Shown piece after piece: positions 9,470 through 17,025 of a stretch of DNA of 21,933 bases. Under the pieces are notes generated by a model, which ran no database searches, had not been told where the DNA came from, and saw nothing but the letters and a program-made list of their open reading frames with translations. The stretch is from a virus, in IMG/VR virus record IMGVR_UViG_3300028031_000015, positions 1 to 21,933 of that record. One strand, 5' to 3'. Each line of letters starts with the position of its first letter. The stretch's first letter is position 1. Both the position numbers and the translations under genes were made by a program.

Positions 9470-11332
9470 ATGTCAATAACTTTAGATACACAATTTAAGA
9501 TAAAATCAATACACGAAGACGGTGAAGATATAGTAATAGAAGGGTTAGCTTCTACTCCAGGAATTGACAGAATAGGTGATGTAATCTTACCTTCTGCTTG
9601 GGTAAAAGGTATTGCTAATTACCTAAAGAACCCTATTATACTGTTCAACCATGATATGGGAGAAGCTATAGGAAAAGCTATAGAGGTAACTCCTGTACCA
9701 GAAGGACTGCGAATAGTAGCTACTATCTCTAGTGCAGCAGGCAGAACTTATGCCTTAATCAAACAAGAAATTATAAAAGCTTTTAGTATAAAGATTCTGC
9801 CAACAGCCGCAGAGTTTAATGAAACTAATGAAGTTCTAGTCATTTCAGAACTAGAACTCCTAGAGGTGTCTGTAGTAACTATTGGAATGAACGCAGATAC
9901 ATTATTTAACGTAAGAAAGTCCTTCCACTCTGATAAGGACTATAATTCATTTATTAAAGGCTTTATAGCCCCAAAAGAGGAAGAACAAATGCCAGAAGAA
10001 AAAGTAGAATATGAAGTAGACTTAGACGCTATCACAAGTGCAGTCAAAAAAGAACTTAAACTAGAAGCTGAAGCTATTGCTAAAGCTGCTGCTAAGAAAG
10101 ACTCAGATGACAAAATGATTAAAGATGCTATTGCTAAGACCGTTGCAGAACTGATCAGCACTGGTGAAGAACGCCTAAAGGCAGATATTGAGAAAGCTTT
10201 AGCTAGTGAGAAAGCAGACTTAGGTAAACTACAGGAAGAATTAAAACAAAAAGCTGTAGAATTTGAAGCTATGCAGAAGTCTAAAATGACCTTTAACGAT
10301 CACGGCAACATGGGCCGCCAGCCTTCTAAAGAAGATATTGCTGCTGCTGTTCTTAGTGCTAAAGTACTTAAGAAATCTTTGTGCGATACTAAAGCGTTTA
10401 AAAATGCTATCGAGAAACTTGGTCCCAACTATACCGCAGGTATGGAAGAATGGGAAAGTGAGTACTCTACCAATATCTATAACGAAATCCGTTTAGCTTT
10501 ACGAGTTGAGCCCGTCATTAAGTCTATGACTGTTACTCAGCCAGCAACTTATATTCCAGTGAACCCTGACGCCGGTGTAGCAGATTGGATTGACCCTGTC
10601 AATTATGATAATCAACCAACTACCCCTCCAGCCAACGACCTTACTACTGGACCAAATAAAAACCACGTAATGACTGAACAAGTCTTGCTTACCCATAAGT
10701 TAGCTACCAAGTCTTGGTTAGTAATGGAAGATGATGAAGACTCTATCATCAACCTTACTCCTTTGATTACTGAAGCTATGGTTCGTAGGATGTCTAAGTC
10801 TAGTGATATCGCGATATTGCGTGGTACAGGTGTAGGCCCAGCAGATCCTATTTTAGGTCTTACTACTTTAGCAGCTAATGCTGGTGCAAATACTGTTACT
10901 GCCTCACTGTCTGGTACTCGTATTACTGTACAGACTTTGATTGATGCTCGAGAACAGTTAGGTATTTACGGTATCGACCCAGGTGAGTTAGTCTACTTTG
11001 TAAGTACTGAAGGTTACTATAGCTTGCTACAAGACCCTAAGTTCCAGACTATTGACTTAGTAGGTGATCGTGCCACTTTAATCACGGGGCAGATCGGTTC
11101 TATTAGCGGTAGCCCTGTAGTGGTGTCTCACTCTTTTGATGTGGCAGTAATTGGTAATGCAGCTGCTGTTGTAGTTAATCCTAAGTACCAAATCATAGGT
11201 AATCAGCGTAACATGGTTACTGATACTTGGTTTGATGTTGAGAAACAGTCTCGCTTGTTTATCGCTACCCGCAGAATGGGTATGTTGGAGCAAGAAAGCG
11301 GTGGTGTTGCTGTGATCGACTGGGTAATTTAA
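9470..11332 (+). CDS. Fused prohead protease, scaffold segment and HK97-fold major capsid protein
   Basis: One 620-residue ORF carries three jobs that HK97 divides between two genes. Residues 1-150 are an S78-type maturation protease, seen as GLASTPGIDRIGDVILPSAW, the catalytic His61 in ILFNHD, Ser106 in AFSIKIL, and LELLEVSVV. Residues about 170-270 are Glu/Lys/Ala-rich coiled coil, like the delta/scaffold domain that is cut away on maturation. Residues about 275-620 are the HK97-fold major capsid protein, with a conserved middle EQVLLTHKLATKSWLVMEDDE, RRMSKSSDIAILRGTG, and a late RLFIATRRMG. AGGAG precedes the ATG. An in-frame ATG (residue 174) at 9989 has its own ribosome site and would give a 447-residue scaffold-capsid protein without protease. 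No separate scaffold gene is seen nearby. The exact cleavage site cannot be read. Confidence 0.92.
   Translation: MSITLDTQFKIKSIHEDGEDIVIEGLASTPGIDRIGDVILPSAWVKGIANYLKNPIILFNHDMGEAIGKAIEVTPVPEGLRIVATISSAAGRTYALIKQEIIKAFSIKILPTAAEFNETNEVLVISELELLEVSVVTIGMNADTLFNVRKSFHSDKDYNSFIKGFIAPKEEEQMPEEKVEYEVDLDAITSAVKKELKLEAEAIAKAAAKKDSDDKMIKDAIAKTVAELISTGEERLKADIEKALASEKADLGKLQEELKQKAVEFEAMQKSKMTFNDHGNMGRQPSKEDIAAAVLSAKVLKKSLCDTKAFKNAIEKLGPNYTAGMEEWESEYSTNIYNEIRLALRVEPVIKSMTVTQPATYIPVNPDAGVADWIDPVNYDNQPTTPPANDLTTGPNKNHVMTEQVLLTHKLATKSWLVMEDDEDSIINLTPLITEAMVRRMSKSSDIAILRGTGVGPADPILGLTTLAANAGANTVTASLSGTRITVQTLIDAREQLGIYGIDPGELVYFVSTEGYYSLLQDPKFQTIDLVGDRATLITGQIGSISGSPVVVSHSFDVAVIGNAAAVVVNPKYQIIGNQRNMVTDTWFDVEKQSRLFIATRRMGMLEQESGGVAVIDWVI
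9976..9991 (+). promoter_or_regulatory. Internal ribosome site and start for capsid-only product
   Basis: AGAGGAAG at 9976-9983 is placed about 8 bases (from the end of its GAGG core) before an in-frame ATG at 9989-9991, between the protease and coiled-coil parts of the fused ORF. Initiation here would give abundant scaffold-capsid subunits while full-length translation gives fewer protease-bearing ones. The position exactly at the domain boundary is why I consider it functional; purine-rich Glu/Lys codons could also create it by chance. Confidence 0.6.
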
Positions 11333-14060: not shown

Positions 14061-14530
14061 TGAGTAGACGGTCGGCTATAGCACACGCTATTGGAGAACA
14101 AATAAGAAAAATAGATGGTACTGGAGACTGGACTTCCAATATATTTACCAATGTAATATTCAAACAACCCTTTTTAGCTAATATTAATGACTTTCCCACA
14201 GTAGTAGTAGTACCTGGCGAAGAAGTACGCCAGATAGAGGCTGCCGGATTTAAGTGGGGCATACTAAACATAATTATTCGTGTCTTTATTACTGATGAAG
14301 ATGATACTATAGCTAACCTAGAGCCTATCTTATACGATATAGAAAGGGTAATAGATAGTGTAGGAGTTATAGAGTATTCTCCTGGACTTATAACACAAGA
14401 TATGCGCGTCTTGAGTATAATTACCGATGAAGGTATATTATCTCCTTTAGGTATTGGAGAGATTAGCGTGCAAGTAAGATATGATATTCCTAACACTTTA
14501 TGCATAAAAGGAGATAATACATGCCAGTAA
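14060..14530 (+). CDS. Tail terminator / tail completion protein
   Basis: The protein has 156 residues. Its ATG overlaps the last base of the upstream stop and GGAG lies about 6 bases before. Tail terminators cap the tail tube at the head-proximal end and stop polymerisation. The pattern fits: an N-terminal helix (AIAHAIGEQIRKID), FPTVVVVPGEE, a beta strand pair (WGILNIIIRVFITDEDD), helix NLEPILYDIERVID, and a last strand GIGEISVQVRYDI. The place between neck protein and tube protein is that of the terminator in siphophages. The identity rests on these patterns and order, not on a catalytic signature. Confidence 0.75.
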   Translation: MSRRSAIAHAIGEQIRKIDGTGDWTSNIFTNVIFKQPFLANINDFPTVVVVPGEEVRQIEAAGFKWGILNIIIRVFITDEDDTIANLEPILYDIERVIDSVGVIEYSPGLITQDMRVLSIITDEGILSPLGIGEISVQVRYDIPNTLCIKGDNTCQ

Positions 14531-16089
14531 ATTCAAATATGTGTGTAGCGGGTCTTAGTACCTTTAGCTTATCACGAAACACAAGATTAGTAGTTTCTAC
14601 CGTTAAGGTAGGTGGCACATTTGATGGCACACCTCCAGGAATTAACTCCTGGGAAGTACCTATTCTAGACGGTTATTCTTTTAGTCAAGATAACACTACT
14701 ACTGAAATTCAAGTAAACGAAGCTGGTTGTACACCTATTCGTGGGCAGAAACAGTTTAATACCGCAGTTAATCCAGCTCAGTTTAGCTTTACCACTTATG
14801 TAAGACCTTACCGAGATACTACCGTTTTTGCTTTAGAGAATATTCTTTGGGCAGCATTAATGAATGCTAATACTGAATTAGCGACTATTGACGAGCATGG
14901 TAATGTACCAATCTCCGCCACCTCTACTGTTGCAGATCAGTTGTTAGATTTTGAGAGCTCTGATACTAATGACTTGTTAAAGCTACAACTATATTTTGAT
15001 TTGGACGGGACTTTCTATCATATTGAAGATGCTTTGCTAGATACAGGTTCCATATCTTTCGATATTGAAGGTATCGCTCAGATTGTATGGGGTGGTCAAG
15101 GTACGGCTATTAATTCCATTGCTATCGCAGATACTCCTTTTGATGGGGATAATTTCCTAGCAGCTAATGCGGCTGTACAGAGCACTAACTCCGCAGAGTT
15201 TATTCGTAATAAAGTTTCTTTAGTGACTCTTAATGACTTTACTCCAGCAGGGATTAAAGTAGGTTATACTGCTGCTATGGCCCTTAGTGACGTAGTTACT
15301 ATGACTCCTGGGGTATTTACCACTATTGTCACTATTGATGGCGTTGCTGCTCCTATTAGTATCACTACTGTTGCAACCACAACTGTCGAAGATATTATAG
15401 CAGGAATTAATACTGATTTAGACGCTACAAACGCAGTAGCTGAACTTAGTATTGACGGTAAGAGTATAATGATTTATACTATAGACCGTAAAGATCTTAC
15501 TACCCCGTCCTCAGTAGTTATTGACGAGACTGCAGTAGGAGACACCTTATTTGATAGTATAGCTACAGCTACTCCATCTGTATACGCTGCTGCTAATACA
15601 GATATGAACAATACTGCAGTAGGTGATGTAACAGCCGTAGTAGTTACTGTGAATCTTGATAATACAAACGGTACTAACTATAATGTTGCTTTAACTGGCG
15701 GAACTCTAGATATTTCTAATAACATTACGTTCCTAACCCCAGATGCTTTAGGTGTTGTAAATACCTCTATTGGAGGCTTTGCAGGTACTCGTACTATTAG
15801 CGGTACTCTTAGCGCTTACTTGAAGTCTGGAAACAGTGAGACAGGTGGTCTATTGCAGGATCTATTAGACTCTAAAGACCAGACTGTAAACTGCTACTAC
15901 TTAGAGATTGATATTGGTGGCTGTGATTTATCTGGACCTCGCCTAGTGTTAGTAGTACCTTTTGCTAATATCGTACTACCTACTATTAATGTTCAAGACA
16001 TTCTTAGTACTGATATTAACTTCACGGGTCTAGGCTCTGACCTTAGTCAAGCTAATGAACTATACGTTCGTTATCATGCAACACCTTAA
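14521..16089 (+). CDS. Major tail (tube) protein with an inserted domain
   Basis: The protein has 522 residues and overlaps the terminator gene by 10 bases; AAGGAG lies 7 bases before the ATG. It forms the hexameric rings of the tail tube. The N-terminal half has SWEVPILDGYSFSQDNTTTE, a conserved-looking QKQFNTAVNPAQFSFTTYVRP and FALENILWAALM. The C-terminal part returns to tube-like strands (TRTISGTLSAYLK, CYYLEIDIGGCDLSGPRLVLV, VQDILSTDINFTGLG). Between them, residues about 241-365 (FTTIVTIDGVAAPISIT...VEDIIAGINTDLDA...SIMIYT) look like a separate Ig- or flagellar-hook-like domain probably displayed on the tail surface. At 522 residues it is long for a tube protein, consistent with the insertion. 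Paired stem-loops follow it. Confidence 0.8.
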   Translation: MPVNSNMCVAGLSTFSLSRNTRLVVSTVKVGGTFDGTPPGINSWEVPILDGYSFSQDNTTTEIQVNEAGCTPIRGQKQFNTAVNPAQFSFTTYVRPYRDTTVFALENILWAALMNANTELATIDEHGNVPISATSTVADQLLDFESSDTNDLLKLQLYFDLDGTFYHIEDALLDTGSISFDIEGIAQIVWGGQGTAINSIAIADTPFDGDNFLAANAAVQSTNSAEFIRNKVSLVTLNDFTPAGIKVGYTAAMALSDVVTMTPGVFTTIVTIDGVAAPISITTVATTTVEDIIAGINTDLDATNAVAELSIDGKSIMIYTIDRKDLTTPSSVVIDETAVGDTLFDSIATATPSVYAAANTDMNNTAVGDVTAVVVTVNLDNTNGTNYNVALTGGTLDISNNITFLTPDALGVVNTSIGGFAGTRTISGTLSAYLKSGNSETGGLLQDLLDSKDQTVNCYYLEIDIGGCDLSGPRLVLVVPFANIVLPTINVQDILSTDINFTGLGSDLSQANELYVRYHATP

Positions 16090-16095
16090 GTAATA

Positions 16096-16149
16096 AAGAT
16101 CCTTGCGAAAGCAGGGGTCTTACCAAATTCTAAAGTATTTGGTAAGACC
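16096..16149 (+). promoter_or_regulatory. Two overlapping, mutually exclusive stem-loops after the tube gene
   Basis: Stem-loop A pairs 16096-16106 (AAGATCCTTGC) with 16111-16121 (GCAGGGGTCTT) over 11 bp including two G-U pairs, closed by a GAAA tetraloop. Stem-loop B pairs 16116-16127 (GGTCTTACCAAA) with 16138-16149 (TTTGGTAAGACC) over 12 perfect bp with a 10-base loop. The six bases 16116-16121 belong to both, so A and B cannot form together. There is no U-tract after either. The arrangement suits read-through control or RNA processing between the abundant tube gene and the less-needed chaperone and tape measure genes. Confidence 0.75.
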
Positions 16150-16192
16150 GAGGTAGTCTGCCCTCTATTCAGCAGCAAAAGGAGAAAGACAA

Positions 16193-16630
16193 ATGGATTT
16201 AAGTAACATTAGTAATATTTTAGTTGACGTAAAAAACAACGAGTTTGATATGCCGGGCTTCCCTGGAATGACTATCTCTCTAAACTATTTAGGACGAGAT
16301 AAGTTGACCGCTATCCGAGACTCTTGTACTACTCGCAAGCGTAAGAAAAATACCAATAACAAGTATGAAATGGTTGATGACCTTGATTCAGATAAGTTCC
16401 AAAAGGAGTATATCGAATCAGTACTTGTAGGGTGGACAGGCCTAACTTTACATTATCTAGAAAAGTTAGTTCCTATGGAAGTTCCAGTAAATACCGATAT
16501 GTCACAAGAAGTACCTTTCAGTAAGGCAAGTGCAGTAGGTTTGATGTTAAATGGCTCAGTAGTCGACAATGTAGTTACAGAGTTTTTAGCTGATTTGGAA
16601 TCTTTCAATGAAAAGCGAATAGCCTCCTAA
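16193..16630 (+). CDS. Tail assembly chaperone, short form (lambda gpG-like)
   Basis: The protein has 145 residues, close to lambda gpG (140). AAAGGAG lies about 8 bases before the ATG. The protein coats the tape measure during tail assembly and is not in the finished virion. Position between tube protein and tape measure, size, and a second ORF in the -1 frame make the assignment. Sequence shows a beta N-terminus (FDMPGFPGMTISLNYLG), a basic patch (TTRKRKKN), FQKEYIESVLVGWTGLTL and a helical end (VVTEFLADLESFNEKR), the helix into which the frameshift product continues. Sequence resemblance to known gpG proteins is weak, as is normal for this fast-changing family. Confidence 0.8.
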   Translation: MDLSNISNILVDVKNNEFDMPGFPGMTISLNYLGRDKLTAIRDSCTTRKRKKNTNNKYEMVDDLDSDKFQKEYIESVLVGWTGLTLHYLEKLVPMEVPVNTDMSQEVPFSKASAVGLMLNGSVVDNVVTEFLADLESFNEKRIAS

Positions 16631-16638
16631 CAGAGGCT
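16609..16638 (+). other. Probable -1 programmed ribosomal frameshift site (G to G-T)
   Basis: The -1 frame is closed by TGA at 16609-16611 and the zero frame by TAA at 16628-16630, so any shift must occur between them. The only plausible slippery spot is GAA AAG (16610-16615), where the Lys tRNA can slip from AAG to AAA. Five bases later a perfect 6-bp stem begins, AGCCTC (16621-16626) with GAGGCT (16633-16638), enclosing the zero-frame stop in its loop. Slippery codon, short spacer and hairpin are the expected parts. The slip sequence is not a canonical heptamer, so efficiency may be low. Confidence 0.7.
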
Positions 16639-17025
16639 TTGCAGCAATACTTTCAAAATGTAGCCGCAAAAGTTACTAAAGAACGTTACCTAGAAATGTG
16701 CAATGCACTAGGTAACGCACCTATCGAAGAAGAGATACCTATCTCTTTTGAAGACTTCCCCCAATTTCTGCAACAAATCCTACAAATTTATTTCATGCTA
16801 CCTTCTCAACTGGTAGGTATGGAAGGCACCTTCGTAGGAAAAGACTTAAGTATTCTCCCCTTCTTGATTGACACTTACAAACTCCCTTATAAATTACTAA
16901 CCGTAGAAATAATACAGATGTGTAGTAATATCCAAGCAAATCACCTTTATGAGCAACGTAAGCAAAAGCAAAAAGCAAAAGAATCCCAAAAGAAACCTAA
17001 TGATCTAGTACGCGTAGGAGGTTAA
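16615..17025 (+). CDS. Tail assembly chaperone T extension, made as G-T fusion by -1 frameshift
   Basis: This frame has no credible start of its own: the first possible codon is a TTG at 16639 with AGAGG only 2 bases away, and the first ATG (16696) lacks a ribosome site. Read by -1 frameshifting after AAG at 16613-16615, it adds 136 residues to the first 141 of G, giving a 277-residue G-T protein (lambda gpGT is 279). The junction reads FNEK then ANSLLTEALQQYFQNVAAK, a continuous plausible helix, which supports the fusion. The extension has QFLQQILQIYFMLPSQLVG and a Lys/Gln-rich end (EQRKQKQKAKESQKK). In lambda the T part recruits the tube protein to the tape measure-G complex. The tape measure gene starts 3 bases after its stop. 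Confidence 0.75.
   Translation, partial: ANSLLTEALQQYFQNVAAKVTKERYLEMCNALGNAPIEEEIPISFEDFPQFLQQILQIYFMLPSQLVGMEGTFVGKDLSILPFLIDTYKLPYKLLTVEIIQMCSNIQANHLYEQRKQKQKAKESQKKPNDLVRVGG

Follow-up and report, generated by a model that had tools for sequence, protein, structure and literature searches.

A T5-type tail assembly chaperone pair with a probable -1 frameshift at an A_AAG tetramer

The locus and its two reading frames

The window analyzed here, a viral stretch of 21,933 nt (IMG/VR record IMGVR_UViG_3300028031_000015), carries two overlapping reading frames, G and T, between its major tail protein and tape measure genes, with the following features at and around the locus.

14521–16089, plus strand: major tail protein of T5 type (phrog_3575, E 9e-67)
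16179–16184, plus strand: Shine-Dalgarno sequence of G, AAGGAG, spacing 8
16193–16630, plus strand: G, the short tail assembly chaperone, zero frame, 145 aa from ATG 16193 to TAA
16609–16611, plus strand: TGA, a -1-frame stop that bounds entry into T on the upstream side
16612–16615, plus strand: putative slip site A_AAG in the context U_GAA_AAG_C, at which tRNA-Lys would move from AAG to AAA
16612–17025, plus strand: T, the C-terminal domain, frame -1, predicted to be translated solely as a continuation of G
16621–16638, plus strand: 6-bp hairpin AGCCTC/GAGGCT with a 6-nt loop, starting 5 nt after AAG
16628–16630, plus strand: zero-frame stop TAA of G, in the hairpin loop
17029–21930, plus strand: tape measure protein (phrog_3779, E 2e-47), with Shine-Dalgarno sequence AGGAGGT at spacing 6

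The T frame is displaced by -1 relative to G, is open from 16612 to its stop at 17023–17025, and overlaps G by just 19 nt (16612–16630). The initial annotation had given this offset, together with lengths of 277 residues for the long product and 145 for the short form, and our frame analysis and recomputation returned the same values; its interval for entry into T, 16610–16630, was right in substance but starts slightly too early, the tighter limits being 16612–16630. The genes adjoining G/T are intact, the tape measure frame is still open where the window ends, and the neighbors, which include a tail terminator (phrog_3907, PF23818) as well as the tape measure protein, match T5-type families. 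The tape measure protein is the expected client of G and of the GT fusion. No tRNA genes were found in the window, and an Rfam search gave no match.

Two further parts of the window are described for the record. The head maturation protease and the major capsid protein lie in a single 620-aa frame (9470–11332) and are apparently fused. A perfect 13-bp hairpin (GGTCTTACCAAAT...ATTTGGTAAGACC) lies at 16116–16149, in the gap that separates G from the major tail gene, and has no T-run behind it; the 103-nt stretch has a z of -3.95, and protection or processing of the abundant tail mRNA is a possible role. The T5-like loci L005–L019 have an extra gene between the major tail protein and G, annotated as base plate tail tube or minor tail protein, where the window has only about 100 nt (16090–16192).

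The G protein matches the profile phrog_313 (E 6e-9) and is about 30–36% identical to the G proteins of its relatives, while T matches phrog_3914 (E 9e-13) with identities of about 33–50%. The phrog_313 family itself spans a fusion, in that G aligns to positions 25–140 and the T of phage T5 to positions 170–258 of its 258. An AlphaFold model of G (pLDDT 75) found its best solved match in YqbN (3KLU) with a Z-score of 5.5, the next being 3.1, and a Foldseek search of the model against the PDB gave nothing significant. We take YqbN to be a prophage tail chaperone of the XkdN type, and weak similarity to two XkdN-like families, phrog_389 and Phage_TAC_5 (Pfam, below the cut-off), was seen for G as well; the profile matches reported for G and T are confined to T5-type and XkdN-like families. 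Judged by their sequences, G and T are thus tail assembly chaperones of T5 type and T5 descent, and because this assignment follows from homology, both of the pair (phrog_313 and phrog_3914) and of its neighbors, the earlier description of the pair as lambda-like is apt for working mode and size only.

The resemblance to lambda G/GT nevertheless extends to several features. Both pairs lie before the tape measure gene, make or would make two forms, place T in the -1 frame and have AAG as the slipping A-site codon, the lambda site being G_GGA_AAG (reviewed in PMC5009743). The sizes are also parallel, as had been proposed, with 145/277 residues for the window against 140/279 for lambda (the lambda figures being those of the initial annotation). 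The window differs in that none of its reported profile matches is to lambda G/T and in that an A_AAG tetramer with a hairpin takes the place of the heptamer.

The slip site and the hairpin

The zero-frame codons from 16610 onward are GAA (16610), AAG (16613), CGA, ATA, GCC, TCC, and TAA. Within the 19-nt overlap AAG is the sole codon that allows cognate re-pairing at -1, as AAA, and a slip there would yield the junction FNEK|ANSLL within a 277-residue product. The overlap holds no in-frame X_XXY_YYZ heptamer; it contains an in-frame tetramer of the A_AAG class, a sequence that accounts for 1.0% of codons in the window's genes. The codon after AAG is CGA, which is fairly uncommon, and the base 3' of AAG is therefore C, which in a related cassette favors shifting more than U when 3'-adjacent (PMC5009743). 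No clear Shine-Dalgarno-like stimulator was seen upstream of the slip site.

The initial annotation had suggested that this could be a little-described signal, but the signal type is already known. Among 16 Z_ZZN tetranucleotide -1 motifs tested in Escherichia coli, A_AAG was the most efficient, at as much as 5.6% when the strong pseudoknot of IS3 followed, a figure for E. coli that may not carry over to the host of the window's phage, and the tetramers as a group hardly exceeded background when no stimulator was present (PMC4066793). Outside a heptamer, A_AAG is used in IS1222 (G_CGA_AAG) and occurs in Bacillus cdd (A_CGA_AAG), and in both, as proposed for the window, a single tRNA-Lys slips from AAG to AAA; these genes encode a transposase and a cytidine deaminase, and their preceding codon is CGA, with an I:A wobble, rather than GAA (PMC5009743). 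What is unusual in the window is the heptamer-free use of A_AAG in a tail chaperone, at a junction where relatives have a canonical heptamer or a +1 site.

The perfect 6-bp hairpin that had been noted 5 bases after GAA AAG, with the stop enclosed, is present as described: its arms AGCCTC (16621–16626) and GAGGCT (16633–16638) flank the loop CTAACA, which encloses the TAA of G. Its folding energy is -8.9 kcal/mol, with a z of -2.7 for the 35-nt segment. Dinucleotide shuffling of the gene pair gave perfect stems of at least 6 bp at a spacing of 4–10 nt at 1.2% of positions, and such a stem follows 2 of the 55 in-frame A_AAG sites in the window's genes. The second of these, a perfect 7-bp stem at 1790, falls within a 116-aa ORF (1649–1999), and its presence there is probably due to chance. 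The rule given for 3' stems asks for a spacing of 4–10 nt after the motif and G-C as the first pair (PMC4066793); the window's stem conforms in spacing (5 nt), but its first pair is A-U, and at 6 bp it is modest in strength. It is probably a stimulator of slippage. Since 3' structure is not general in the clade of relatives that carry heptamers (mean z -1.1, with 45% below -1), the window's hairpin cannot be called ancestral.

Relatives with -1 and +1 junctions

Scans of IMG/VR for homologues, after removal of duplicate junctions, gave 106 loci with a -1 junction, the window included. An in-frame canonical heptamer is found at the homologous junction in 103 of the 105 others, as G_GGA_AAC (85 loci), A_AAU_UUC or A_AAU_UUU (16), and G_GGA_AAG (2). 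The remaining two, L181 and L201, have the degenerate forms G_AAU_UUU and C_AAU_UUU, in which the first heptamer base is lost and the U_UUU tetramer alone would remain. The L002 group of uncultivated T5-type phages from IMG/VR shares with the window homologous G and T, the same offset and a colinear fusion, but has a canonical heptamer upstream of the window's slip position, which lies about three codons downstream of the heptamer position in relatives. No close relative of the window was found: the IMG/VR search, which may omit near-identical records, gave no second copy of its junction, the phage collection held no relative at the DNA level, and the genome contigs searched contained no relative.

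The T5-like phages arrange the same pair differently. They have homologous G and T and a colinear fusion, like the window, but T lies in the +1 frame in all 15 T5-like phages compared, which belong to several genera, and all have TTT CGN at the junction. With IMG/VR records added (loci L005–L019, L223–L252, and L253), TTT CGT occurs in 30 and TTT CGA in 4, which covers all 34 distinct intact loci; in L001, one further locus called +1, G is broken upstream of an intact GGGAAAC. In phage T5 itself (L253) the pair is T5.143/T5.142 (AY543070, 97054–97458 and 96624–96992), annotated, as in the T5-like phages generally, as separate genes; the sequence over its junction is ...CTAGATACTTTTCGTAGC..., from which slippage by +1 at UUU_C would give HLDTF|VAQKRKELL.... 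When closely related T5-like phages are compared over the stretch that follows the G stop and precedes the annotated start of T, codon differences number 167 synonymous to 73 nonsynonymous in the T frame, whereas the remaining frames give 15:216 and 12:219, all counted over overlapping and thus nonindependent pairs of phages. The synonymous excess in the T frame ahead of the annotated T start indicates that this stretch is translated.

These comparisons of sequence make it probable that T5-like phages use a +1 programmed frameshift at UUU_CGU or UUU_CGA that has gone unreported. Sequences of the form UUU_Ynn are prone to +1 slippage (PMC5009743), the influenza PA-X site is UCC_UUU_CGU (PMC8310308), and UUU_CGN has been proposed for plant amalgaviruses (PMC5052127). 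T5 and Sugarland have been stated to be without a predicted frameshift signal (PMC6256483), the literature searched held no report of the T5 +1 site, and the available text of a 2016 recoding review does not mention "phage T5."

Despite the difference in direction, the fusion proteins predicted for the window, for the relatives with heptamers and for the +1 T5-like phages give a gap-free alignment over the junction, and the distance from the end of the G core to the YF motif that starts the T core is equal in the window, L002, and L005. In the DNA, the Phe codon and the YF codons are separated by 41 nt both in the window and in L002 but by 43 nt in L005, as counted by eye, and this 2-nt difference is exactly what -1 and +1 shifts require. 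In a tree of the fused proteins, a split supported at 99/98 divides the T5-like phages from the heptamer group, and the window falls on the latter's side of it without being nested in that group; by this phylogeny the window is a deep branch of the -1 side, but the length of its branch (1.44) makes the exact depth uncertain. The comparison with relatives makes the GT fusion near-certain.

Weighing the alternatives

A -1 overlap leads at this locus into a conserved domain that lacks a start of its own, as in programmed -1 frameshifting, and we consider it highly likely that a single tail assembly chaperone is made from 16193–17025 in a short and a long version, the longer by a -1 slip at A_AAG. 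That T might instead be translated alone, with no fusion, by reinitiation at TTG 16639 or from ATG 16696, is unlikely. The T genes of T5-like phages mostly carry an annotated ATG of their own, and TTG 16639 lies close behind the G stop (8 nt), but its GAGG is merely 2 nt upstream, compared with spacings of 5–8 in the genes for the portal, protease-capsid, major tail, G and tape measure proteins, and a start codon is absent from this position in relatives. ATG 16696 has no Shine-Dalgarno sequence and falls inside the conserved core LEMC, and the Met at which the T5 annotations begin (MTKQ/MTKE) is Val, GTT, in the window, so that the earlier statement that T has no credible start is upheld. The T-frame substitution pattern before the annotated ATG of the T5-like phages likewise speaks against separate initiation.

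The window's junction is known from one metagenomic contig, and in the related L001 locus the frame of G is indeed broken, so an artifact of sequencing or assembly might have produced the frame change in a gene whose true signal is a canonical heptamer or a +1 site. We regard such an error as very unlikely, since the -1 offset agrees with that of the sister clade, the 41-nt spacing from F to YF is identical to that in L002, and the genes around G/T are unbroken. Still less probable is a shift within the overlap by another route, either RNA-polymerase slippage, for which the A run is short (4 A, 16611–16614), or slippage on one of the other codons, CGA, ATA, GCC, and TCC, which are unable to re-pair at -1. 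A +2 shift and transcriptional slippage were set aside, there being no suitable site.

The preferred reading, a -1 slip of tRNA-Lys at A_AAG, draws on the arrangement of the two frames, the one codon able to re-pair, the hairpin, the homology of both domains and the colinearity of the fusion, all taken directly from the sequence, and from these we infer slippage in vivo, its efficiency, stimulation by the hairpin and the roles of G and GT. The majority of ribosomes would terminate at TAA 16628 to give G (145 aa), while a minority would pause with tRNA-Lys on AAG (16613–16615), the hairpin 5 nt downstream and CGA next; tRNA-Lys would then move back one base to AAA, and the T frame would be read to give the 277-aa GT fusion, with an efficiency that is probably a few per cent or less. 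By analogy with lambda, G may form a coat on the tape measure protein, with the T domain of GT bringing in major tail protein and so starting tube assembly. Of the initial annotation as a whole, the tail-chaperone pair, the -1 shift at AAG and the hairpin are retained, the likeness to lambda is narrowed to working mode and size, and the suggested novelty of the signal is not kept.

Taken across the relatives, it seems likely that one chaperone family has kept its fused protein while the recoding signal was replaced several times, as +1 at UUU_CGN, as -1 at heptamers, and as -1 at A_AAG with a hairpin. On this reading the direction of the frameshift can be switched by a 2-nt difference with the length of the fused protein unaltered, and the comparison suggests that the slip site, and even its direction, turns over within a homologous family in which the fusion is retained. 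It also suggests that a tail chaperone can be frameshifted by means of a signal overlooked by finders built around heptamers. The comparison of +1 and -1 junctions, with the apparently unreported +1 site of T5, may be of greater interest than the window alone, and it yields a testable claim about a model phage, that T5.143 and T5.142 are halves of one +1 frameshift product.
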